DNA of 64,000 nt, from positions 1,204,001 to 1,268,000 of the forward strand of contig NC_013159.1 in assembly GCF_000023865.1 (NCBI RefSeq), read 5' to 3'. Shown here piece after piece: positions 22,122 to 42,180 of the stretch; position 1 is the first letter of the stretch; every line of letters begins with the position of its first letter. Made by a program: the position numbers and the translations under genes. Under the pieces are notes generated by a model, which saw nothing but the letters and a program-made list of their open reading frames with translations, did no database searches and was not told where the DNA came from. This stretch comes from Saccharomonospora viridis DSM 43017. Lineage in GTDB: Bacteria; Actinomycetota; Actinomycetes; Mycobacteriales; Pseudonocardiaceae.

Positions 22122-22523
22122 TCAGTGAGTCACTCGGGTGCCGCAGGTCACCCTGGTGCCTCGGGTGACTCGCGTGCCTCGGGTGACGCGGGTGCCTGCG
22201 GTGACTCGCGTGCCTCGGGTGACGCGGGTGCCCCGAGTCACTCGGGTGCCGCAGGTCACCCTGGTGCCTCGAGTGACTCGCGTACCGCGGGTGACGCGGG
22301 TGCCTGCGGTGACTCGCGTGCCTCGGGTGACGCGGGTGCCCCGAGTCACTCGGGTGCCGCAGGTCACCCTGGTGCCTGCGGTGACTCGCGTGCCTCGGGT
22401 GACGCGGGTGCCTCGAGTGACTCGCGTACCGCGGGTGACCCGGGTGCCCCGAGTGACTCGCGTGCCGTTGGTGACGGGGATGGCGTGAATACTGCTCGAA
22501 ATATCGCTCGAAACGGTGAACAT
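22122..22523 (-). CDS. GTRVTx hexapeptide-repeat protein (novel candidate)
   Basis: 133 residues: a unique N-terminus MFTVSSDISSSIHAIPVTN, then 19 uninterrupted copies of G-T-R-V-T-x, where x is R (12), A (3), C (3) or H (last). The ATG has an ideal AGGAGG (22531-22536) at 7-nt spacing. All 19 copies keep GTRVT at the protein level although the DNA varies, including a CGN-to-AGG change that keeps Arg. It has about 31 Arg and one acidic residue, so it is extremely basic. Val every six residues could suit a beta-solenoid, which is speculation. A plus-strand frame (VTRVPx) is also open across the repeat but lacks a ribosome-binding site. I know no described family. Confidence 0.6.
   Translation of the reverse strand: MFTVSSDISSSIHAIPVTNGTRVTRGTRVTRGTRVTRGTRVTRGTRVTAGTRVTCGTRVTRGTRVTRGTRVTAGTRVTRGTRVTRGTRVTCGTRVTRGTRVTRGTRVTAGTRVTRGTRVTRGTRVTCGTRVTH
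22125..22468. repeat. 18-bp tandem repeat with 108-bp higher-order period
   Basis: About 19 diverged copies of an 18-bp unit. The segment beginning CACTCGGGTGCCGCAGGT recurs at 22131, 22239 and 22347, exactly 108 bp (six units) apart, showing growth by amplification of six-unit blocks. Differences between units fall mostly at the third codon position shared by the minus-strand GTRVTx frame and the plus-strand VTRVPx frame. Confidence 0.9.
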
Positions 22524-31364: not shown

Positions 31365-31443
31365 GTGCGGCCGGATCACCCGGCTGCATGGGTAGTGTAG
31401 CGGTACCCGCTAGAGTGGTTGCACACCGCCCTCGGGTGGCGAA

Positions 31444-31517
31444 CGGGGTGTAGCGCAGTTTGGTAGCGCATTCGCTTTGGGAGCGAAGGGTCGCAGGTTC
31501 AAATCCTGTCACCCCGA
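31444..31517 (+). tRNA. tRNA-Pro (TGG), integration target
   Basis: A 74-nt cloverleaf: acceptor CGGGGTG with CACCCCG, anticodon stem TTCGC/GCGAA with loop TTTGGGA (anticodon TGG), and T-arm GCAGG-TTCAAAT-CCTGT. Its 3' half (from 31481) is duplicated at 39784, so it doubles as the attachment site of the island that follows. The tRNA itself remains intact. Confidence 0.95.
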
Positions 31518-31518
31518 C
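31481..31518 (+). repeat. attL: 38-bp direct repeat in the tRNA-Pro 3' end
   Basis: From the 3' anticodon stem (GAGCGAA) through the T-arm and acceptor to one base beyond the tRNA. Identical over 38 bp to 39784-39821; flanking bases differ on both sides. Confidence 0.92.
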
Positions 31519-31611
31519 GGTGGGTCTCTGACCAGCAGTGATGCCAGCAATGGCGAAGCTGCTGGTCTCGGGCTCGGCTAGCGCAGCGCTCAGTGATACT
31601 TCGCTTCGCCG

Positions 31612-31827
31612 ATGGAGCGCATGCCGATGCCGCCACTGAACATTCCGGCACCTGAACCTCGGTGGTCTCTGGCCGCAGAGTGGGAAAGATCACTCAGGGT
31701 TGGCGACAAGTGCCCCGAAACCGTCCGCTGCCACGTCGACGTCGTCCGCAAGTTCCGCACCTGGGGCCTTGCCTTCGTCGCATCACCCCACGTCGACGAC
31801 CCCGCTGCGAGGAAGAGGGTCGCCTGA
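31612..31827 (+). pseudogene. tyrosine recombinase N-terminal fragment
   Basis: About 71 residues: LAAEWERSLRVGDKCPETVR and CHVDVVRKFRTWG match the SAM-like DNA-binding N-domain of phage-type integrases (W..SL.....S..T...Y...V..F..W). The catalytic domain is missing. It lies 94 bp from attL, where an integrase is expected. It is short, so the assignment rests on one motif. Confidence 0.5.
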
Positions 31828-31940
31828 GCTGGAGTTGAGTTAGTGGTCTCTCGCCTATTCACGCGAAGGCGCTCTGAATTTCGGGCCGTCTGAACCCAGG
31901 TGGTCCGATGAGGGATCCCCACTTCCTGTGGCGGATTCCC

Positions 31941-32505
31941 CTACTCCTTCTCGTGTTGGAGAACCGGATCGCGGTACGGGAGGCTCACGATCGGGAGTTC
32001 GGTCAGGCCGAGTTGCCGCTCGACCCGGTCCAACAGCGTCGCCGCCGCGGTCGGGTCGTCGGCCATGACCTTGGTCTCGGCGAACGCGCCGATGTCGGTG
32101 ATGAGGTCGATGACCACGGTGACGTCGCCGCGGTTCGGGTGGCAGAAGGTGGTGCGGGTCTTTTCCACCCGGCACAGCCGCACCAGGCCCAGTACGTCTA
32201 ACAGTGTGTTGGCGGCCGTGGCTTGGTCTGGTCCGGAGAGGATGATGTTGGCCTCGGGTTTGGTGATGATGTCCGTAGCCGAGTGTGTGGCAGCGGTGGA
32301 TGCGGGCTTGTAGGTGATCTCCTCGAATTCGTCGCGCTGACGGACCCGCAGGCATTCGACGGTGATCAAAGAAGTCGATATCGGGTCGGCTGTAGTAGGT
32401 GTCCGTTTCGGTGCTGGCGCCCGTCTCGCGGTAGCCGGCCTTGAGTAGACGGGCTGTCAGTTTTATGGCGTCGGCTAGTGCCCGCTTGCGTTCGACCTCG
32501 ATCAT
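31941..32505 (-). pseudogene. CYTH-domain protein (class IV adenylate cyclase/thiamine-triphosphatase-like), frameshifted
   Basis: The N-terminus MIEVERKRALADAIKLTARL carries the ExExK-type signature of CYTH enzymes, followed by YYSRPDIDFF. The frame then breaks near 32367 in a CTTTGA run, and the next frame continues ITVECLRVRQRDEFEEITYK to the end (about 188 residues in all). Removing one T would restore the whole protein. CYTH enzymes act on nucleotide or polyphosphate substrates; the product here is unknown. ATG 32505 overlaps the stop of the upstream gene (ATGA). Confidence 0.7.
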
Positions 32506-33719
32506 GTCCAGTTGTCTCCCTTGTTGATCGCCGTATACATGCGGGACAGGCCGGCTTTGCCACAGTGGTCGGACATCGTGTCGAATGCCTGTCGCAGTGC
32601 GGCCACATCGTTGCGGGGTACGTTTTGAAACAGCACAAGCTGTTTGGCATCGGGGAGGGGGTTGGCCAGCCGCTTGGTGAGGACCGGTTGTAGTAGTGCT
32701 GATCTATGCGGCGGATGTCACCGACGTGGACGGGTAGCAACACTGTATCGGTGTCGGCTTCGGCGGAGTGCACTACGAACGCGGTGAGCAGTTGATCCAG
32801 GGTCATGTAGGCGTAGGTCTCGCGGCCTTCCCGTAACTGCCAGGATTCCCACACCTGTCGACAGCTGGTGTCGCCCTGTTCAACGGAGCTGAGGAACGCC
32901 AGCAGCGCGACGTCGTTGTGGCCGGAACGAAGGTCGAGCCAGTCGGCGCCGTCCAGTAGTGGGGTGAACCCCAGTGCGCCGGAGCGCCATACATGGCCGC
33001 GAAAAGTGATGTAGTGGCGTTGGATCTCCCGGAACAGGCCGACTGGCGCGGAGATCACCGCACAAGTCGCCGGGTGCAGGTCGCTTACCGGCACGATCCG
33101 GGAATTCTGCCGGGCCTGAGATCGTCGTCGGCGTGGTGGTAGGGGTGGGTGCCGTGGGCGAGGTAGTGCGGGACGAATAGGCGAAGGAACGTCAACCAGG
33201 ATCGCGAGTTGTAGGACTGGCTTACTCGAGTGTGCAGTGATGGCCCGTTCACGGCGTACACGCCCCTGTAGGTGAAGAACACGCCAGGAGTGAGCACTTT
33301 CGGCAGCGTTCGCATCATCGTGTGGAGGCCGGTGTATCCGCCGCCGTAGGAATACACCTCATGTAGTAGTGCGGGTGCTGGGACGATGTCGACTGGTTCG
33401 GGGAGCACAGTGCCGATGTCCTGTGCGAAGCCGTGGAGGAGTTCGCACGTTCCTGCACGCTTGAATTGTTCGATGGCTTGGGTCAACGACTGTGACACCG
33501 CCCCGGTACCTCGACCAATGTGAGGTGCACATCGTGTGGATCGGTGGCGAGTTGTTCGGCGCGAAATTGCGCCACCGCTCCACCGCCGGGCCCTACTTCT
33601 ACTATGTGGGAATGTGCGCGGTGGATGCGTTGTAGTGCGCGGTGTATGAGTGTGCCTTTTCGGCGCCGTGCGTGTTTGTTGCTACGTTCAAGTAGGTGAC
33701 GTTGGTTTTTCGCCGGCAA
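32502..33719 (-). pseudogene. class I SAM methyltransferase-like gene with several frameshifts
   Basis: Four minus-strand frames read as one protein of about 405 residues: a TTG start with HIVEVGPGGGAVAQF (SAM motif I); a break near 33508 in a G-run (one G short); then SQSLTQAIEQFKRAG to PHYLAHGTHPYHHADDDL; a break near 33095-33115; then SDLHPATCAVISAPVGLF to DIRRIDQHYYN; a break near 32695; then LTKRLANPLPDAKQLVLFQN to the stop, which overlaps the CYTH start by 4 bp. The two genes formed a coupled operon. Substrate unknown. The start is uncertain. Confidence 0.6.
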
Positions 33720-33821
33720 AATTCCGCAGACCGGGGGGCATCGGGGTAGATATCGGTGGCCACCTCGTTCGAACTGTGGGTGAGCAAGTGCCGGTGCTTG
33801 GGTCGTCCGAGTAGGTTTGGA

Positions 33822-33875
33822 ACCCGGTCGACGCGGGGCGGTGCGGATGGGGAAGTCATCCCGCGTCGACCGGGT
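33822..33875. repeat. 16-bp perfect inverted repeat
   Basis: Arms ACCCGGTCGACGCGGG (33822-33837) and its complement (33860-33875) are separated by 22 bp, in the otherwise empty 33720-34013 stretch between two minus-strand units. It could be a terminator for the cassette upstream or a protein-binding site. Confidence 0.6.
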
Positions 33876-34013
33876 GCTTGGGTGGTGCCCCCACGAGGGT
33901 GACGTCGCGGGAGCACCGGTCCGACTGTTTCGGGCCAGTCGGGTGGGGCCGCTGACTGCGCGTGGTGGTCAACGGCCCCGCTTCTTCCGGGGGACGCACG
34001 TCGGGTTGGTCGG

Positions 34014-34298
34014 CTACCGTGCCCCGGAAGAAACCTCGTGTGGTGCCAGGTTGCGTAGCCCGGCGAGCACAGCCTCGAGCACCGGCAGTGTGGGCCGGTC
34101 ACAGGAACGTAACGCGGCGCGGGCGTCGGCGGTGACCTCAGCGCGGTTGTCGGGGTCGGCGTCGGGCCACCGCCATTGGCCGGCGATCCCTAAGACTGCG
34201 GTCCGTTCGACCGGGTCGTCGAGGGATCGAAGGGGTGCGGTCCGTTCGACGTCGGGCGCGTCGGGTGGGGTGTAGACGGTGATGGGCGAGTCATACAT
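34014..34298 (-). CDS. hypothetical island protein
   Basis: 94 residues beginning MYDSPITVYTPPDAPDVERT, with a helical C-terminus (VTADARAALRSCDRPTLPVL). No recognised domain. Its ATG overlaps the end of the preceding gene by 8 bp; it is the last gene of a three-gene overlapping cassette (34955 to 34014). Confidence 0.6.
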   Translation of the reverse strand: MYDSPITVYTPPDAPDVERTAPLRSLDDPVERTAVLGIAGQWRWPDADPDNRAEVTADARAALRSCDRPTLPVLEAVLAGLRNLAPHEVSSGAR

Positions 34299-34521
34299 CA
34301 GCGGGGGCCTCGGTTGTGTGCGCGTCGGAGGTGTGGGCGCGGTCGACCTCATCGGCGTGTGTGATCAGGTCGTTACCGAGGCATCGCAGGGCATGCCCGG
34401 CCTCGCGGAGTTTGGCCGTGGCGAACGGTTCGCCGCTGTCGAGTAGGGCGAGGATGACATCGCCGATGCTGGCGTTGATGCGGGTGAGTCGGACGAGCAG
34501 CACGCGGCTGTGACGGTTCAT
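34291..34521 (-). CDS. small hypothetical island protein
   Basis: 76 residues from ATG 34521: MNRHSRVLLVRLTRINASIG, then a helical stretch (ATAKLREAGHALRCLGNDLI). No motif recognised. It starts in an ATGA overlap with the upstream gene and overlaps the next by 8 bp, which supports it being real; longer in-frame starts run through the upstream gene. Confidence 0.6.
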   Translation of the reverse strand: MNRHSRVLLVRLTRINASIGDVILALLDSGEPFATAKLREAGHALRCLGNDLITHADEVDRAHTSDAHTTEAPADV

Positions 34522-34955
34522 CTTCCCGCCGCCTTCTGCTGTTTGGCGGTGTGTCGGGCCTTGTTCACTTTGTCGGCTTCCTGTGTCCACTGTTCGATTT
34601 GGCGGCGGGTTTGCGAGGCGGTCATGCCCAGCGCAAGGCCCAGTTGTCGGACGTCGTTGTTGGTCCACTGGAACGTTTGGATGAGGTTTCCGATCGCTCC
34701 GGCCGACCATCCTGTTGCGCGGGCGAACAGGGTGGTGCACACCATGCATGCTGGCGCGAAGCACGTGCCCCGGGCTGTGTCCGTGTCCTCGGGGTGCGGG
34801 GTGACGTCGATTCCGCATAGTGCGACGAACGGACTTCCGACCGTGGGCGCACCGTTGTTGCGGGTGGTGTCACCGAGGTGTCTGCGTGCCACGCCGTTGG
34901 CGTCGCGTGCTTGTTCCCAAAAGTACTTCGCCCATACGTAGCGTTCAGGCTGCAT
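34518..34955 (-). CDS. hypothetical island protein with HTH-like C-terminus
   Basis: 145 residues from ATG 34955, behind a G-rich site. MQPERYVWAKYFWEQARDAN lies at the N-terminus. Then comes a Cys pair (FAPACMVCTTLF), and a region WTNNDVRQLGLALGMTASQT with RRQIEQW that could be a helix-turn-helix. First gene of the cassette, divergent from the XRE regulator. The shared intergenic region carries the GGGTTGCATG sites, so it may be a target of that regulator. Confidence 0.6.
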   Translation of the reverse strand: MQPERYVWAKYFWEQARDANGVARRHLGDTTRNNGAPTVGSPFVALCGIDVTPHPEDTDTARGTCFAPACMVCTTLFARATGWSAGAIGNLIQTFQWTNNDVRQLGLALGMTASQTRRQIEQWTQEADKVNKARHTAKQQKAAGR

Positions 34956-34998
34956 GGCGGCCCCCCCATCACGGTAGGATTTGTCACAACACCCCACT

Positions 34999-35099
34999 GG
35001 GTTGCATGAAACAAGAATGAGTTACATGCAACCCTGAGACAATGCCCCAACCGGATGAACTTCCTGCACTCCCAGTAGACCCGTATGCTGGGTTGCATG
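34999..35099. promoter_or_regulatory. three GGGTTGCATG operator-like sites
   Basis: GGGTTGCATG occurs at 34999-35008 and 35090-35099 and, inverted, at 35025-35034, so the first two in order form a palindrome with a 16-bp gap. The third covers the ATG of the XRE regulator. The position between divergent genes suggests autoregulation plus control of the minus-strand cassette (inference). Confidence 0.6.
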
Positions 35100-35939
35100 G
35101 CTAGCAACGCGGACACCCCGCGAGCCCGAGCGCTCGGCGCGGAACTGCGAGAAGCACGTCAGCGGGCAGGGCTGTCCCAAGGCGCTCTCGCGGACGTGAT
35201 CGGGCGCTCCAAATCCCACGTCTTACGGTGGGAGAACGGAAGGTTGATCCCCAGCGAAACCGACACCGCGCAGGTGCTTCAGGCGCTGGGTGTTCGGGGA
35301 GCTGAGCGTGCACGTTTGCTGGAACTGGCGCGGGACGCGCTCGACCCGGACTGGCTCGCGCCGGGTATTGACAGGCAGCTGGCGGCTTTGGCGGAGTACG
35401 AACGCACCGCGCGGACAATCATCAACGTTGAGCCGTTGATGATCCCGGGGTTGATGCAAACGTACGACTACGCCAGTCACGTGTCGTTCGGCCATGGCGT
35501 AACCCGAGGTGAAGCGCAGCAGCGCGCACAGCTTCGTGTGGGACGTCAGCATGTCTTGACGCGCACCCCGCCGATACAACTAGTGGCGATTGTGGGCGAG
35601 TACGCCGTGCGGAACGCCCCGTGTCCTAGGGGTGTGATGGTGGATCAGCTTCGGTACCTGTTGAAGCTAGCGGCGATGGAGAACGTGACGCTGCAGCTGC
35701 TGCCGATGAAGATGGCGTCCGTTCCAATTTTGACTGGACCTTGGGCTTTGATCGAGTTCGATCGGACCAAGCCGATCGTGCACCTGGATCACTATGCTTC
35801 ATCCGCCACGATCACCGACGCCAAGTCAGTGGCACGGTACAGAAGCGCAGTCGATACGCTGCGTGAGGAAGCGATGAGCCCAACTGACAGCTTTGGGCTC
35901 ATCGCCGACATCATCGAACACGAGGAGATAGCACTATGA
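35097..35939 (+). CDS. XRE-family HTH regulator with DUF5753 domain
   Basis: 280 residues. An N-terminal helix-turn-helix (LGAELREARQRAGLSQGALA, RSKSHVLRWENGRLIP) is followed by the DUF5753 ligand/partner domain (LAEYERTARTIINVEPLMIP, GLMQTYDYA, ENVTLQLLPMKMASVP, PWALIEFDRTKPIVHLDHYA). Such regulators pair with DUF397 proteins in actinomycetes (WhiJ/AbaA-like loci). The ATG at 35097 overlaps an operator-like site; 35085 is an alternative. Its stop overlaps the DUF397 start (ATGA). Confidence 0.9.
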   Translation: MASNADTPRARALGAELREARQRAGLSQGALADVIGRSKSHVLRWENGRLIPSETDTAQVLQALGVRGAERARLLELARDALDPDWLAPGIDRQLAALAEYERTARTIINVEPLMIPGLMQTYDYASHVSFGHGVTRGEAQQRAQLRVGRQHVLTRTPPIQLVAIVGEYAVRNAPCPRGVMVDQLRYLLKLAAMENVTLQLLPMKMASVPILTGPWALIEFDRTKPIVHLDHYASSATITDAKSVARYRSAVDTLREEAMSPTDSFGLIADIIEHEEIAL

Positions 35940-36133
35940 CCATACAACGCTTGGACGGAAATTGGCGGAAGTCTCGCTTCAGCAGCAACACGAACTGTGT
36001 CGAGGCTCGTCGCGTCGAGGGTGGCGTGGAAGTTCGCAACAGCAAGCGGCCCGATGAGGCGACCATCCGCTACACCGACAGCGAGTGGAAGGCGTTCGTT
36101 GCTGGTGTGAAGGCGGGCGAGTTCGACATCTGA
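35936..36133 (+). CDS. DUF397 protein, copy 1
   Basis: 65 residues: WRKSRFSSNTNCVEARRVEG, GGVEVRNSKRP, TDSEWKAFVAGVKAGEFDI, a typical DUF397 partner of XRE-DUF5753 regulators. Translationally coupled to the regulator. The last 40 codons and the 3' flank are identical in DNA to copy 2 at 37976, while the first 25 codons have diverged. Confidence 0.9.
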   Translation: MTIQRLDGNWRKSRFSSNTNCVEARRVEGGVEVRNSKRPDEATIRYTDSEWKAFVAGVKAGEFDI

Positions 36134-36162
36134 ACCGCTGAGTAGCGAATGAACGACAGCCC
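36012..36162 (+). repeat. 151-bp perfect direct repeat, copy A
   Basis: Identical to 38052-38202, exactly 2040 bp away. It covers the 3' part of the DUF397 gene and the first bases of the terminator stem. Sequence upstream of it in the two copies is clearly diverged. Confidence 0.95.
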
Positions 36163-36193
36163 CCGGCACCCTGCGGCACTCCGGGGGCTGTTT
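36157..36193 (+). terminator. CAGCCCC-type terminator after DUF397 copy 1
   Basis: Stem CAGCCCCCGG (36157-36166) with 36181-36190, then TTT. Related stems occur after DUF397 copy 2 (imperfect, about 38197-38233) and at 39485-39522. Confidence 0.75.
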
Positions 36194-36258
36194 CGTGTGT
36201 CACTGGGGGCGGTGTACCTCGATCGCCGTGCCCGCCGCCGCGCCGGTTTGTCGAGGGT

Positions 36259-36435
36259 TTACACCGGTGGGTGCAGGTTGGGCCGCCTACCGGTACCCCG
36301 ACACCAGCGGCACAACCGCGCGATGATCACCGTTTGCGGTTCCCTGCCGATGATGGCTGCCTTCGGGTCGGCGATGCGCCCATCGCCTCCGCACGCGTTG
36401 CACAGCGCGCCCGGTTTACGGTTGGTGTCGCTCAT
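36259..36435 (-). CDS. zinc-ribbon microprotein 2
   Basis: 58 residues from ATG 36435. Two Cys pairs: LCNACGGDGR (12-15) and LCRWCRGTGR (42-45). This is the C-x-x-C-x-G-x-G pattern of DnaJ-type zinc ribbons. It starts in an ATGA overlap with the stop of microprotein 1, which argues strongly that both are genes. Function unknown; such proteins are common on actinomycete elements and phages. Confidence 0.65.
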   Translation of the reverse strand: MSDTNRKPGALCNACGGDGRIADPKAAIIGREPQTVIIARLCRWCRGTGRRPNLHPPV

Positions 36436-36581
36436 GCCGGGCCCCCCACGATCTGCCCACTACCGTCGCAGGTGGGACAGTCTATGTCCTCCGTGCCGCC
36501 GGCGCGTTCCACCGTGATGGTGCATGCGCCCTTACAAGTGGGGCAGTGGTATATCTGCCTGCCATCGGGTGTTTTGGCCAC
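36432..36581 (-). CDS. zinc-ribbon microprotein 1
   Basis: 49 residues from GTG 36581: AKTPDGRQIYHCPTCKGA, then DIDCPTCDGSGQIVGGPA, two C-P-T-C knuckles as in DnaJ zinc fingers. GAGG lies about 8 nt upstream. Overlaps microprotein 2 by 4 bp. The preceding 36582-36742 gap has no supported gene. Confidence 0.65.
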   Translation of the reverse strand: MAKTPDGRQIYHCPTCKGACTITVERAGGTEDIDCPTCDGSGQIVGGPA

Positions 36582-36742
36582 GTGCGCAGCCTCGCCGCGT
36601 CACGCGCGTGATCGCTACCGCTGTGCGGGTGGATCTGTCGTCCGTGGGCGTGTGCTCATCGTGCGGACACGACACGACGCCGCGGCGCTCCCTCTATACA
36701 CAGCGGCCGGGGTCGTTCGTGGCGTGATACCCCAAAGCAGGT

Positions 36743-36997
36743 CTAATAACCCAACGAATCCAGTTGGGTCACCATGTCATTCACAATGCGTTCGTATTCG
36801 TCCATCGCTGCATAACCGACGTACAACAAGTAGCACGCGGCAATGAGACCCAATGCGGAAAAGAAAATCGTCCACCCATGGCGGGCACGCAGCGCGACCA
36901 CCAACGCAGCAATAGACGCGGCCACGGCGATGAGCGCAAAAAGAATCACCGACTGATAGTCGGCGATGCGTGCGGTTTCGGTATAGACCTCTGCCAA
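36743..36997 (-). CDS. small two-TM membrane protein, probably 5'-truncated
   Basis: 84 residues from TTG 36997, with two TM helices (SVILFALIAVAASIAALVVA; GWTIFFSALGLIAACYLLYV). In the same frame, upstream sequence reads GYPPQQPPKPRPWHHYVTWP, the Pro-rich lead of actinomycete membrane proteins, but no start is left before the amidase fragment begins. Probably a truncated gene at a recombination junction. Confidence 0.55.
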   Translation of the reverse strand: MAEVYTETARIADYQSVILFALIAVAASIAALVVALRARHGWTIFFSALGLIAACYLLYVGYAAMDEYERIVNDMVTQLDSLGY

Positions 36998-37098
36998 CGC
37001 GACGATTCCGAGGGCTGGCCAGGTGACGTAGTGGTGCCACGGCCGGGGCTTCGGCGGCTGTTGTGGCGGATATCCGTAGGGATAACAAGGACTTCCTC

Positions 37099-37422
37099 GC
37101 CACAGAAGGTGATCTCCCCATCACCCTGACTGAAGTGCAGATCACCCACCGACAACTTCGCACCCGGCACGAACACCGGATAAAACACCCGCGAACCCCG
37201 CGACAGGTTCTTGATGTCCTGGTTCCCACCGTTCTCCCGCGGGGGAGCGGTACACGCCGCCTCCTGCGCCGCCCGCTCGAACTCCGCACCCGACAACGAA
37301 CCCAACACCGCATTCTCCGCAGTCGGCGGCAACGCCAACGGCGGAACCCGCGACGGATCCGTCGCGATCAGATCACCCTCTCGCTCGCGAGGCCGCTGAC
37401 GAACCGGTAAACGAGGTATCAA
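37099..37422 (-). pseudogene. acetamidase/formamidase (FmdA) internal fragment
   Basis: About 108 residues include FERAAQEAACTAPPRENGGN, QDIKNLSRGSRVFYPVFVPG and AKLSVGDLHFSQGDGEITFC, the conserved core of FmdA/AmdA amidases that release ammonia from short amides. The homology stops abruptly after CG (about 37099), where sequence belonging to the membrane protein begins. Both ends of the enzyme are missing. Confidence 0.7.
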
Positions 37423-37436
37423 CCGGTGAGCGTGGA

Positions 37437-37979
37437 CGGGTCGATGCCCTTACAACCCTGACCGAGCTCGAGCGCTCGGCAACACGAATCACCGACGTAT
37501 CCGCCCTGCTCGTGCCTGGCCTGCTCCAGACTGCGGACTACGCGCGGGAGGTGTTGCGGGGCACCTCTGACACAGAAACCAAGATTGCAGTCCGTCTCGG
37601 TCGACGAGACGTGATCCTTCGGGATGAGACCCGGTGTTCATGCTGGAGTCGGTGCTGTACCGCGACACCGGCGCGAAGTCTTATTGGACCAGTTGCGGCA
37701 GATCGAGAATTTGGCTGGTCTCCCAAATGTGTGCGTCCGTATCATCCCGAAAGCGTGCGGGATCACCCCGGCGCACATGGGCTCGTTCGTGTTGATCGAG
37801 TTCGCGAAAGCGGACTCAATCGTTCACCTGGAACACCTCAGCACAGCGGCGTTCCCGCGGGACAAGGTTGACGTTGAGGCGCACCAGCGTGCTCGAATGA
37901 GTCTTGACCAGATAGCGATGAGGACGAGTCGCTCGGACTCATCGCTAACGTCATCGAGAAGAAGGAGACGACACAATGA
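37437..37979 (+). pseudogene. DUF5753 regulator remnant (second module)
   Basis: The HTH is missing. The frame begins VDALTTLTELERSATRITDV, then LLVPGLLQTADYAREVL, breaks near 37635, continues LDQLRQIENLAGLPNVCVRI and HMGSFVLIEFAKADSIVHLE, breaks again near 37920 and ends SLGLIANVIEKKETTQ. Its stop overlaps the DUF397 copy 2 start (ATGA), as in the intact module at 35097. A decayed duplicate, diverged from copy 1. Confidence 0.8.
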
Positions 37980-38173
37980 CCGTACACCAGGAACCTGCGG
38001 GTTGGGTGAAGTCAAGCTTCAGCAACCAGCACAATTGTGTGGAGTTCCGCTGCGTCGAGGGTGGCGTGGAAGTTCGCAACAGCAAGCGGCCCGATGAGGC
38101 GACCATCCGCTACACCGACAGCGAGTGGAAGGCGTTCGTTGCTGGTGTGAAGGCGGGCGAGTTCGACATCTGA
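37976..38173 (+). CDS. DUF397 protein, copy 2
   Basis: 65 residues: GWVKSSFSNQHNCVEFRCVE then the same GGVEVRNSKRPDEATIRYTD tail as copy 1. Intact although its partner regulator is broken. Its 3' part lies in the 151-bp perfect repeat, probably after gene conversion with copy 1. Confidence 0.88.
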   Translation: MTVHQEPAGWVKSSFSNQHNCVEFRCVEGGVEVRNSKRPDEATIRYTDSEWKAFVAGVKAGEFDI

Positions 38174-38202
38174 ACCGCTGAGTAGCGAATGAACGACAGC
38201 CC
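38052..38202 (+). repeat. 151-bp perfect direct repeat, copy B
   Basis: Identical to 36012-36162. It ends just inside the imperfect CAGCCC-type stem that follows DUF397 copy 2. Confidence 0.95.
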
Positions 38203-38315
38203 TCGGAACGCCGTAGAGCACCAGGGGCTGTTTGTTGCCACGATCGGGTGAATCCTCTTTTTGTGGTTCGCGCCGGTGGACATGGTGGTGACCAATCCGT
38301 CAAGAAAGGCGTGGC

Positions 38316-39464
38316 ATGACCACCACCCGTAGCGCGCTCGACTGGCGCGCACACGCGCAACGACTCGCTGGCCAACTCGTCGCCTCCGGCGACATCCGCA
38401 CCCCACGATGGCGCGATGCCATCGCCGCCGTCCCCCGACACCTTTTGGTGCCCACCGCCTACGAGCAGGACCACAGCGGCCGGTGGACGCCGTGGAGCAC
38501 CGTCGACGACCTCGATCGCGTCTACTCCCCGGAAACGCTCATCACCGACATTGACCCCGCTGGCATTGCGGTGTCCTCGTCGACGAAGCCGGACCTCATG
38601 GCGCGCATGCTCGAACTGCTCGACGCGCGCCCCGGGCATCGCGTGTTGGAAATCGGCACGGGCACCGGCTATAACGTGGGGCTGCTCGCTCACGCTCTAG
38701 GCGAGGAGAACGTGTTCTCCGTCGACATCGACCCCGACCTTGTCGACGCAGCTCGGGCACGGCTGGCGGTCGCCGGATATCACCCGACACTGGTTGCTGA
38801 CGACGGCGCGGGCGGGGTGCCGGAACATGCGCCCTACGACAGGATCATCGCAACCTGTTCCGCGCCGCGTGTGCCGTGGGCATGGGTGGAGCAGCTCGCC
38901 GACGAGGGCGTGATCCTCGCCGACGTGAAAGTCGCCGCTAGCGCGGGCAACCTCGTTCGCCTCACCCGCGTCGACGAGGACACCCTCGTTGGCCGCTTCA
39001 CCACCCGATGGGCCGGGTTCATGGCCATGCGCCACCACCACGACATCCCCACGGCCTTGACACCGATCCCTACCAGGGGCGAGGGCGCCACGTACCGAAC
39101 CACGGACCTCGACACTCCACGGGTGTGGGAGATTCCGCCCCTGTGGTTCCTGATCAACCTGTGGCAAGGACCGGTCGGCTTCGGCTACACACTCGACTCG
39201 GATACCCGTCAACCCACCGGTGCCCTCTACACCGCTGCGGACGGATCGTGGTGCCACACCATTACCGAATCCGGTCGGCACACAGTCGCCGAGGGTGGGC
39301 CCCGCCGGTTGTGGTCGACCATCGAACACGCCGCCACCCGGTGGCGGGAACTCGACGAGCCTGATTGGGACCGGCTTGGTTTGACTGTCTCCCGGGCAGA
39401 ACAAACGGTGTGGATTGACCACCCCGACGGGCCCGCGTGGAATCTGCTGGCCGAGCGTAGGTGA
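38316..39464 (+). CDS. PIMT-like SAM-dependent methyltransferase
   Basis: 382 residues. The N-terminal 230 resemble protein-L-isoaspartate O-methyltransferase: AAVPRHLLVPTAY, VYSPETLITDIDPAGIAVSS, TKPDLMARMLELLDARPGHR, VLEIGTGTGYNVGLLAHALG (SAM motif I), IATCSAPRVPWAWVEQLADE. A 150-residue C-terminal extension (WEIPPLWFLINLWQGPVGFG) is typical of the actinomycete variants found near DUF397 genes or in ATP-grasp peptide (graspetide/pimtide) clusters. No ATP-grasp or precursor gene is visible, so the substrate is open. Confidence 0.85.
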   Translation: MTTTRSALDWRAHAQRLAGQLVASGDIRTPRWRDAIAAVPRHLLVPTAYEQDHSGRWTPWSTVDDLDRVYSPETLITDIDPAGIAVSSSTKPDLMARMLELLDARPGHRVLEIGTGTGYNVGLLAHALGEENVFSVDIDPDLVDAARARLAVAGYHPTLVADDGAGGVPEHAPYDRIIATCSAPRVPWAWVEQLADEGVILADVKVAASAGNLVRLTRVDEDTLVGRFTTRWAGFMAMRHHHDIPTALTPIPTRGEGATYRTTDLDTPRVWEIPPLWFLINLWQGPVGFGYTLDSDTRQPTGALYTAADGSWCHTITESGRHTVAEGGPRRLWSTIEHAATRWRELDEPDWDRLGLTVSRAEQTVWIDHPDGPAWNLLAERR

Positions 39465-39481
39465 CGACAAGGTCACACGGC

Positions 39482-39525
39482 AAACAGCCCCCGAGCACCT
39501 AAGTCACGGTGCTGGGGGGCTGTTT
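39482..39525. terminator. bidirectional CAGCCCC-type terminator
   Basis: A stem of 15 bp with one mismatch (39485-39499 with 39508-39522) and an 8-nt loop, flanked by AAA and TTT, between the methyltransferase and the convergent 57-residue gene. Confidence 0.75.
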
Positions 39526-39531
39526 CGTACG

Positions 39532-39705
39532 TCAGGCGCGGCGCACCTCGATTGCTGTGCCCTCGGGGCGGTGTGCCACCCGTTCCTCGTCGCTGGACGC
39601 CTCGCCACCCGGCGGAGAGGCCCGCGTGGTCCGTAACCGGCACTCAACACCGTCGCCGTGCACAGCGGGGGCGGACATGTCCGACTGGACGTTGTAGCGG
39701 AACAT
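39532..39705 (-). CDS. 57-residue hypothetical protein
   Basis: MFRYNVQSDMSAPAVHGDGV ... EGTAIEVRRA. Arg/Glu-rich, no TM. No clear ribosome-binding site; ATG 39678 is an alternative. It contains a TTA leucine codon (plus-strand TAA near 39634), rare in high-GC actinobacteria and possibly dependent on the bldA tRNA. The C-terminal GTAIEV is echoed by a remnant GTAIEVHRPQ ending at 36200, which suggests a duplicated island gene. Confidence 0.4.
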   Translation of the reverse strand: MFRYNVQSDMSAPAVHGDGVECRLRTTRASPPGGEASSDEERVAHRPEGTAIEVRRA

Positions 39706-39783
39706 GTCGATGCCGCGTGCTGCAGCTGCTCGGCCAACCAGTCTTTGAACCGCTCGACCTTCACGCCATCGCTACGCGAGGAA

Positions 39784-39821
39784 GAGCGAAGGGTCGCAGG
39801 TTCAAATCCTGTCACCCCGAC
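39784..39821 (+). repeat. attR: 38-bp direct repeat
   Basis: Exact copy of 31481-31518, the 3' half of tRNA-Pro(TGG). The 5' half of a tRNA is absent here, so it is not a second tRNA. Marks the right end of the island. Confidence 0.92.
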
Positions 39822-39862
39822 AGCGTGACGGCCGCGAGCCCGGCGTCCCGGTGACGTCAGGC

Positions 39863-40699
39863 TCAGCGGCGTCTCCGCAGCCACCAGGCGACGGGGAACA
39901 ACATCGCGAAAGCGACGAGCGAGGTCACGACCACCATGACGACGATCCGGGGGTCGTCGAAGCTCTGAGTCGCCACCACCGTGGCGGCGGCGATGTTGCG
40001 TTGGGACGTCCCCAGTCCCAAGATCTCGCGTCGCTCGGCACGGCGGCCGCCCAGTGCGTAGCCGATCAGGAAAGCGCCTCCGATCACCACCAGCCCCGAC
40101 ACGATCACGTCCCATCGGGCGATCCCGACTATCCTCCGGGCGTTCGCCAGCACCGTGATCACGACGACCGCCACGAGTGCCGCCGTCGACGTGTGCCGCA
40201 AGGCCGGGGTGACGCGTTCGGCAAGCCTCGGTAGCCGAGAGTGACCGAACAAGCCCACGGCCAGGGGAAGCAGCATCGTCAGCAACAGCGGAACCCCGAT
40301 CGCGAGCGCACTGACCTCGGTGCCCGGGATCAGCAGGGGCACCGCCACGGGCATGTACAACACCGTCACGGGCAGCAGTACCACGAGCAGAGCGGCGCTG
40401 AGACCGAGATCACCCTGAGCGGCCTCGGCGAGCTTGATGAGGAAGGGCGCGCCCGCCGCGGTGGCGACCAACAGCAAGCCGATCTCGAACGGTTGTTCCA
40501 ACGACACCAGCCACAGCACTCCGAGGGCCAGTAGGGGCACCAGGACGAAATTGGCCACCAGCGCCAGGACGATCGCCCCCGCGTCACGCAGCTGGGCGAG
40601 AAGCCTGCTCAGGGAGTTGCTCAGTCCCACCGAGAGCATCGACGAGACCGAGAACACCACCACCGCGATGTTCAGCAGGGAAGCGAGCACACCGGACAC
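39863..40699 (-). CDS. bile acid:sodium symporter (BASS) family transporter
   Basis: 278 residues, about 8-9 TM helices. It has the family's FSVSSMLSVGLSNSLSRLL start, a discontinuous-helix region ATAAGAPFLIKLAEAAQGDL, and the C-terminal LGLGTSQRNIAAATVVATQS. Sodium-coupled uptake of an organic anion is likely; the substrate is unknown. First chromosomal gene right of the island. Confidence 0.85.
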   Translation of the reverse strand: MSGVLASLLNIAVVVFSVSSMLSVGLSNSLSRLLAQLRDAGAIVLALVANFVLVPLLALGVLWLVSLEQPFEIGLLLVATAAGAPFLIKLAEAAQGDLGLSAALLVVLLPVTVLYMPVAVPLLIPGTEVSALAIGVPLLLTMLLPLAVGLFGHSRLPRLAERVTPALRHTSTAALVAVVVITVLANARRIVGIARWDVIVSGLVVIGGAFLIGYALGGRRAERREILGLGTSQRNIAAATVVATQSFDDPRIVVMVVVTSLVAFAMLFPVAWWLRRRR

Positions 40700-40756: not shown

Positions 40757-42180
40757 TCAGTCGGGTTCGCTCACCGCGGGACCGGTCGTCGACGACCGAC
40801 GGGGCAGGCCGGGGTGTTCCGGGGGGAACGGCAACTGCTCGGCGTTGAGACGTTCCCAGGCTGTCCTCAGCTCGGCCAGGACATCGGGGTGCTGGCCGGA
40901 GAGATCGGCTCTCTCCCTACCGTCGACCGTGACGTCGTAGAGTAGGTGATAGTCGCCGGGTTCGCGGGGCCAGTTGCCCAACACCGCGCGTTCGCGCCTG
41001 TCGAAGAGGTACTTGAACCGCCCCCGCCGCAGCGCCCCCTGGTTCGAGGTGCGCCAAAAGAGGTCGTGTTCGGGGAATTCCGCGCCCTCCGTCAACCACG
41101 ACGCCAGACTCACCCCGTCCAACGGCCAGTCCTCGTGCGGTTCCGCCCCACCCAGCTCGATCAGCGTGGCCGTCAGGTCCATGTGATGACCGGCCGGTCG
41201 CTGACCTGGCCCGCCGCCACGACCGCAGGCCAGCGCAGGATGAGCGGTACCCGGATGCCGCCTTCGGTGAGATCCCCCTTCTCACCCACGAAGGGCCAGT
41301 TCCTCGACCACCGTTCTCCGCCGTTGTCCGAGGTGAACACCACGATCGTGTCATCGGACCTGCCCGCCCCGGCCAGGGCGTCCAGAACGCGTCCGATGCC
41401 CGCGTCCATGGCCTCGACCAGTTCTCGGTACTTGGCGAGCGAACCACCGTCCAAGTGGAGCAGCGGGGAGTGGGTCCAGTCCTGTTCGTATCGGGAGCGG
41501 ATCTCCCGGCCCACCGCGGAGTCTCTGGGGCCTTCCCACGGCCAGTGCGGTGCGGTGTAGTTGAGCTGTACGTAGAAGGGGCCGTCCTGATCGGCGGCGA
41601 TGTATTCGGCGGCGCGGTCGGAGATCAGGTCCGTGTAGTAGCCCGCCTGTTCGACCGGGGTCTCACCTTCGTAGAGGTCGGGTTGACCGAGTGTGTCGAC
41701 GTGCTCGAAGTAGTCCATCGCGCCGTCGAGGTTGCCGAAGAACGTCTGGAAACCGATGCGCAGTGGGCTGTACCACGGCAGCCAGCCGCAATGCCACTTA
41801 CCGAACATCGCCGTCCGGTAGCCCGCGCCGGCGAGGATCGACGGCAGCGTCGGGTGGTCGGCCGGAATGCCGTTCTCCGGGGTCCGTCTCGTGAGGGGTT
41901 CTTCCAGGCCCGCCTGCAACCTCCCGGGGAAGCGGCCGGTGTAGAGACTGATCCGCGTCGGTGAACACCACGATGAGCCCGCGTAACCGTGGGTGAAACG
42001 AATCCCTTCGGTGGCCAGGCGGTCGAGGTTCGGCGTTCGGATTGTCGTGGAGCCGTAGCAGCCGAGATCCGCCCAGCCCAGGTCGTCGGCGAGGATGAAG
42101 AGCACGTTCGGGGGAGTCGTCGGACGGCCACGTTCGAGTCCGTCGAAAGCCCGTCGGATTGTCGTGGAGCCGTTCGGCAT
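40757..42180 (-). pseudogene. arylsulfatase, frameshifted near its C-terminus
   Basis: Sulfatase-family hydrolase. ATG 42180; metal site NVLFILADDLGWADLGCYGS; signature SSWCSPTRISLYTGRFPGR with the Cys converted to formylglycine (C-S-P-T-R); later VFTSDNGGE. At 41173-41182 the frame ends (PVITWT stop) while the next frame continues MDLTATLIELGGAEPHEDWP through 141 residues. One missing base accounts for it: the family reads PVIT-MD-TATL without interruption. Either a true pseudogene or a sequencing error. No signal peptide is seen. Confidence 0.8.

Follow-up and report, generated by a model that had tools for sequence, protein, structure and literature searches.

The genome of Saccharomonospora viridis DSM 43017 is a single contig of 4,308,349 bases, of which we analyzed the 64 kb from 1204001 to 1268000; this whole stretch is called the window, and the coordinates below are positions within it. 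An 8.3-kb island in the tRNA-Pro(TGG) gene of the window is very probably a decayed integrative element, a remnant of the cis-mobilizable type, because it carries the stub of an integrase gene behind a leader box and because intact relatives of that integrase lie behind the same pair of tRNA genes in other genomes. The island lies between two identical copies of the tRNA 3′ end, its genes are missing from the same locus in related genomes, and it has lost its integrase apart from the N-terminal stub. A first-pass annotation of this DNA had proposed a genomic island in tRNA-Pro bounded by attL and attR; that proposal is upheld. The features on which the argument turns are the following.

31444–31518, + strand: tRNA-Pro(TGG), called by ARAGORN; its 3′ half would have been regenerated by the element
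31481–31518, + strand: attL core, 38 nt, exact repeat
31519–31580, + strand: element leader hairpin, −38.3 kcal/mol, z −5.5, with TGACCAG at 31529–31535
31579–31601, + strand: leader box, GCGCAGCGCTC at 31581–31591 and then GATACTT at 31595–31601, located with a matrix from other elements
31612–31827, + strand: integrase stub, N-terminal SAM-like part only; the family profile covers ~31663–31764
39784–39821, + strand: attR core, 38 nt, exact repeat

The repeated tRNA 3′ end

The exact 38-base repeat claimed in the first-pass annotation is there: the two cores are 100 percent identical and 8303 bases apart from start to start, and a pattern search allowing ≤3 mismatches finds the core exactly twice in the whole genome, with 0 hits for a reversed-sequence control. 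Each core begins immediately past the TGG anticodon and ends where the tRNA ends. The second core indeed stands without a tRNA 5′ half, since ARAGORN calls no tRNA there and the best nearby match of the 37-nt 5′ half is 16/37; the 3′ end of the tRNA gene is thus directly duplicated at the far end of the island, as is expected of tRNA islands. Anticodon-centered crossover sites and displaced 3′ fragments are given as marks of tyrosine-integrase islands in the portions of the Islander paper available to us (PMC4383910), and the extent of the core likewise fits a tyrosine-integrase attachment site. Among exact direct repeats of ≥20 nt in the window, the att repeat is the fifth longest; those exceeding it are a 151-nt tract in two DUF397 genes (36012/38052) and, near 22 kb, three pairs within a cluster of tandem repeats. 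This cluster, at 22127–22440, is made of exact repeats of up to 90 nt, some exceeding the att repeat.

The integrase stub and its family

The recombinase fragment named in the first-pass annotation is borne out by a profile match, the leader box, and intact relatives behind the same tRNA pair. When a profile of the N-terminal part of an actinobacterial integrase family (30 segments) was searched against the six frames of the window, it matched the + strand at 31597–31824 with E 1.8e-5, the next match having E 0.97, and the stub is the sole significant match to this family in the window. A catalytic domain was not found in the stub, which is all that the island holds of an integrase gene, and the nearest PF00589 match in the genome is ~220 kb off.

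Intact family members stand where the stub stands. In Lentzea (L129), the DNA after a tRNA-Gly(TCC)/tRNA-Pro(TGG) pair encodes, in an open frame, a 316-aa integrase whose domains are Phage_int_SAM_4 and Phage_integrase, and an open integrase frame lies behind the same pair in a second genome, G101 (L178). At E 1e-30, at least 71 of the 397 genomes surveyed in the order encode a relative of the Lentzea integrase, at most five candidates having been scored per genome. ARAGORN finds a tRNA gene (Pro, Val, Arg, Ser, or Met) at 22 of the 30 integrase loci kept, or 23 of 31 with the Lentzea locus, and by comparison of coordinates these tRNAs are on the integrase strand and just upstream. The integrase match begins ~80–165 bases past the tRNA at 21 of the 22 loci, and at the other (L206) only the later part matches. 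Within the genus, G011 has an intact family integrase starting ~86 bases past tRNA-Val. More distant matches to the Lentzea integrase occur in 145 phage records, all under 60 percent identical, and plasmid records contain no match at 1e-20.

The leader box

The motif GCACAG[CG]G precedes the integrase at 15 of the 31 family loci, and in 8 of these 15 TGACC[AT]G or TCACC[AT]G starts 41–42 bases ahead of the box; the spacing in the window is 52. The scoring matrix was built from the 14 unique leaders of the 15 box-bearing loci of other elements, leaving out 16 of the 31 leaders, several of which appear by eye to come from a subclade whose leader is different. Run over both strands of the 64 kb, this matrix scores highest at 31579, with 16.5 bits, and the runner-up has 12.7 bits; a held-out leader (G011, tRNA-Val) scored 20.8 bits, the second-best place within 3.9 kb having 5.8. 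In other genomes, the same box precedes intact integrase genes next to tRNA-Val, tRNA-Arg, and tRNA-Pro.

Past tRNA-Pro, the box is present at +52 to +62 in the window (p 0.0003) and in the congeners G008 (p 0.0003) and G009 (p 0.005), and the box of G010 is weak (p 0.096). At this locus the window, G008, G009, and G010 all lack an encoded CCA, while the box occurs in none of the six genomes that do encode CCA (G001 and G003–G007) and is also missing there from G011, which has CCG. A pattern scan of 31440–31640 for promoters and terminators found nothing. Because two family members scanned in Pfam hold only SAM-like and catalytic domains, the module could be either an accessory recombination site or a promoter-operator of the integrase. 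We tentatively suggest that the family uses, in the interval from the tRNA to the integrase start, a conserved and perhaps undescribed leader module, TGACCAGC with GCACAGCGCTC starting ~41 bases later and often GATAACTT, which might act in one of these two ways and whose one-sided loss might lock the island in place.

Relatives in which both ends are found

Both cores were found for three family elements, with repeats of 57 bp over a span of 3860 bp (G258), 41 bp over 20987 bp (G425), and 43 bp over 15931 bp (G315), so that at 8.3 kb the island falls within the range of relatives spanning 3.9, 15.9, and 21.0 kb. A second core was not found in the fetched stretches for the elements of G101, G307, G281, and G320. 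In G425 and G315, the box comes up again in the same orientation at 25 bases from the inner edge of attR (p 0.0002 each), and GATAA[CT]T stands farther in, at 72 and 82; G258 carries GATAACT at 70, but its box is weak (p 0.23). Within 150 bases of attR on the inner side, the island lacks GATAA[CT]T, and there is no box at the expected place, the one box-like match being 126 bases off (p 0.03); nor is a box found on this side in G009 (p 0.89). As the motif inside attR was not found, mobilization of the island is doubtful. At least one relative looks mobilizable, since G315 encodes a TrwC relaxase.

In G098, another genome of the order, an insert of ~51 kb occupies the same tRNA-Pro (L174/L175; C261:3674 and 54546), with the tRNA end repeated. 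It carries a Phage_integrase gene beside attR that points toward attR.

Congener loci and the right edge

We searched 11 congeners (G001–G011), in 10 of which the tRNA-Pro locus is assembled, fetching 18.5–19.5 kb per locus and counting repeat copies at ≤6 mismatches. By DNA comparison, the island genes are missing from the locus in all 10. The shared upstream block stops at the tRNA or within ~120 bases after it, and the shared downstream block does not restart at 39822 but at ~42300 in nine congeners and at 41741 in the tenth, G003.

Each of the 10 loci has one repeat copy at this threshold, and a looser scan adds a single diverged second copy, in G009, so nine of the 10 are single-copy. The first-pass annotation expected empty sites to run from the tRNA straight into the sequence after 39821, and although all 10 loci are free of the island, none is joined in this way. 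G003, the sole testable congener with this right flank, has one repeat copy and ~230 bases between the tRNA and sequence matching the window from 39855 onward. The same annotation named relatives with both repeats and no island as evidence against its proposal. The second core of G009 is 27/38 identical, is followed by CCA, and lies 1.97 kb from the first core, and the 1.97-kb insert that the two enclose at this tRNA-Pro site is a different one; we read this as repeated use of the site and not as a refutation.

The claim that the island is defined to the base is less well supported at its right end, where attR has no CCA after it, the attR box was not found, and accessory genes (an SBF permease and a sulfatase) run past attR to ~42.3 kb. 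The permease is matched in G003 only, in pieces, and the sulfatase end also in G002; because the matches to these genes are confined to G003 and G002, the accessory DNA extends beyond the repeat, and the right edge of the island is less certain. Directly right of attR, at 39822–39883, is a stable hairpin (−36.9 kcal/mol, z −3.6) that is perhaps a terminator, and given this hairpin an earlier description of attR as having no terminator after it was dropped. The GC content of the island is 63.4 percent, versus 66.4 percent to the left and 67.2 and 66.4 percent to the right, and segments of the island have matches dispersed over each of the 11 congeners and over other parts of its own genome.

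Proposed history and alternatives

In the history that we propose, a circular element whose attP bore the 3′ end of tRNA-Pro would have crossed over in the anticodon-loop region through the action of a tyrosine integrase of Xer size whose gene lay immediately inside attL. The copy brought by the element would have restored the tRNA, and attR would mark the 38-bp end that was displaced. Later, only the N-terminal stub of the integrase would have been left, a piece of a chromosomal gene would have entered, and genes would have broken; the island probably also lost the motifs to be expected inside attR. We infer both this order of events and the present immobility of the element.

The DNA to the right of attL could instead be native, with an accessory block starting at ~31.7 kb and a second repeat that arose by an unrelated rearrangement. 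The sequence at 31519–31640 is collinear with what follows the tRNA in G009 (score 47 versus a shuffle maximum of 25), 31642–31695 aligns with G010 (33 versus 28 shuffled), and against random genomic windows the left-flank alignments have p 0.0007 (G009), 0.0007 (G010), and 0.01 (G005). The G009 and G010 alignments had led us to take this inner flank as native, which was reversed by the intact Lentzea integrase behind a similar leader. However, the aligning G009 and G010 are, with G008, the carriers of the box without CCA (G010 weakly), that box heads intact integrases at three kinds of tRNA gene elsewhere, and the stub sits where family integrases begin; we consider a native origin highly improbable. 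It is also very unlikely that the element is still mobilizable, with a related integrase acting in trans to excise it through attL and attR. Both att cores are perfect, and the G011 integrase shows that an intact family member exists within the genus, but the island's own genome has no family member at 1e-30, its three weaker matches being 29–33 percent identical, and no box was found in the island at the place where two of the three relatives carry it inside attR.

Several observations weigh against a decayed element of this family. The stub open reading frame (ORF) has no match in Pfam, NCBIfam, or PHROGs at E 0.1, and BLASTP of the stub against the Lentzea integrase alone is not significant; sequences of solved structures also give nothing at E 10. 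What ties the stub to the family is the profile match, together with the box and the position of the stub. The empty library scans had raised a doubt about the recombinase fragment, which was dropped after the Lentzea locus was found and then the profile and box tests were made. The integrase profile finds nothing within 2 kb past tRNA-Pro in the 10 congeners, including G008, G009, and G010, and there is also a slight alignment of the left inner flank with G005 (score 29), a genome that encodes CCA and lacks the box. In G002, the closest relative (91 percent identity in the shared block), contigs end at about window 31409 and restart at 41727. At the right, attR is followed by AGCG, unlike the second core of G009. 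Finally, of eight family element stretches, whose ORF tables extended a few hundred bases beyond the right ends, only that of G320 overlaps the island in cargo, and weakly (DUF5753).

Cargo and decay

The remaining genes and gene remnants between the cores are as follows.

31941–32505, − strand: CYTH-domain gene, apparently split over two frames; the Pfam match covers profile positions 52–169
32366–33719, − strand: methyltransferase-like remnant, three overlapping ORFs, no Pfam match
34518–34997, − strand: zf-HC3 zinc-finger protein, 159 aa
35085–35939, + strand: HTH_31 and DUF5753 regulator, 284 aa
35936–36133, + strand: DUF397 protein, 65 aa
37100–37385, − strand: formamidase gene fragment, 286 bp, 281/286 identical to G000:C1:2100032–2100317
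37512–37940, + strand: second DUF5753 gene, HTH part gone, two frames
37976–38173, + strand: second DUF397 protein
38316–39464, + strand: PCMT-type methyltransferase, 382 aa
39507–39770, − strand: small ORF, apparently broken, related to one by tRNA-Leu in G008

The genes that appear whole are the HTH-DUF5753 regulator, the two DUF397 genes, zf-HC3, and the methyltransferase. The N-terminal part of the CYTH gene was recognized by eye in another frame, and the remnant at 32366–33719 is presumably methyltransferase-like, judging from its VEVGPGGG motif. The formamidase fragment differs from the gene of its own genome at 5 sites and from a partial copy in G002 at 2 of 128, while its divergence from five other congeners is 11.6–15.1 percent of the aligned positions, a pattern indicating that it came from this lineage after the split from most of the genus. 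It abuts the regulator gene that lacks its HTH part. The 151-nt tract common to the DUF397 genes is identical at 36012–36162 and 38052–38202 and has sharp edges within diverged surroundings, as by gene conversion or recent duplication.

The best NCBIfam model for the 382-aa methyltransferase is an ATP-grasp peptide maturase methyltransferase, at 346 bits, below the cut-off of 380. In G003 (L076 7287–9900), a relative of this enzyme lies behind an MvdD-type pre-ATP-grasp gene and a short precursor-like ORF (by eye); neither was seen beside the island methyltransferase. Near tRNA-Leu(TAG), both G008 (L073 9051–9914) and the island's own genome (L074 7240–9912) have sequences related to pieces of the island, which suggests that this tRNA gene is a second hotspot. 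Plasmid records contain no near match for the island.

Discussion

The island is best described as similar to a cis-mobilizable element (CIME), which the available portions of PMC5704250 define as a decayed integrative and conjugative element (ICE) or integrative and mobilizable element (IME) that retains attL and attR. Like a CIME, it keeps both cores and has lost integration and transfer genes, no relaxase, Rep, or Tra domain being recognized in the main island ORFs scanned; it differs in that the motif expected inside attR was not found at its place, and its descent from an ICE or IME is putative. It would have worked in the manner of other tyrosine-integrase islands. It shares the regenerated tRNA gene, the displaced 3′ fragment, and the anticodon-side crossover class with the tRNA-gene islands in the portions of the Islander paper that we had (PMC4383910), which require an integrase gene where the island has only a stub. 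With actinomycete ICEs such as pSAM2 it has in common an actinobacterial tRNA target and a tyrosine integrase, going by what was accessible of PMC3218068. It differs from them in that Rep and an FtsK-type Tra are not seen among its scanned ORFs. The site of pSAM2 is reportedly tRNA-Pro. The elements of its own family (Lentzea L129, G101, G315, G425, and G258) likewise have the integrase just inside attL, the leader box, and a core at the tRNA 3′ end, but their integrases are intact and their cargo is different, with both cores observed in G258, G315, and G425. No publication on this island was found in a literature search outside which most subscription journals lay, and the words "island" and "integrase" do not occur in the paper on the S. 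viridis genome (PMC3035233, main text).

These results identify the occupant of this tRNA hotspot in a thermophilic actinomycete. The island is ordinary in kind, and the leader box is a useful by-product of its analysis. Together with the loss of the encoded CCA, the box may mark former insertions that retain neither integrase nor second repeat, as in G008 and weakly in G010, and the boxes provide a testable handle on site choice or control by this family of Xer-sized tRNA integrases.

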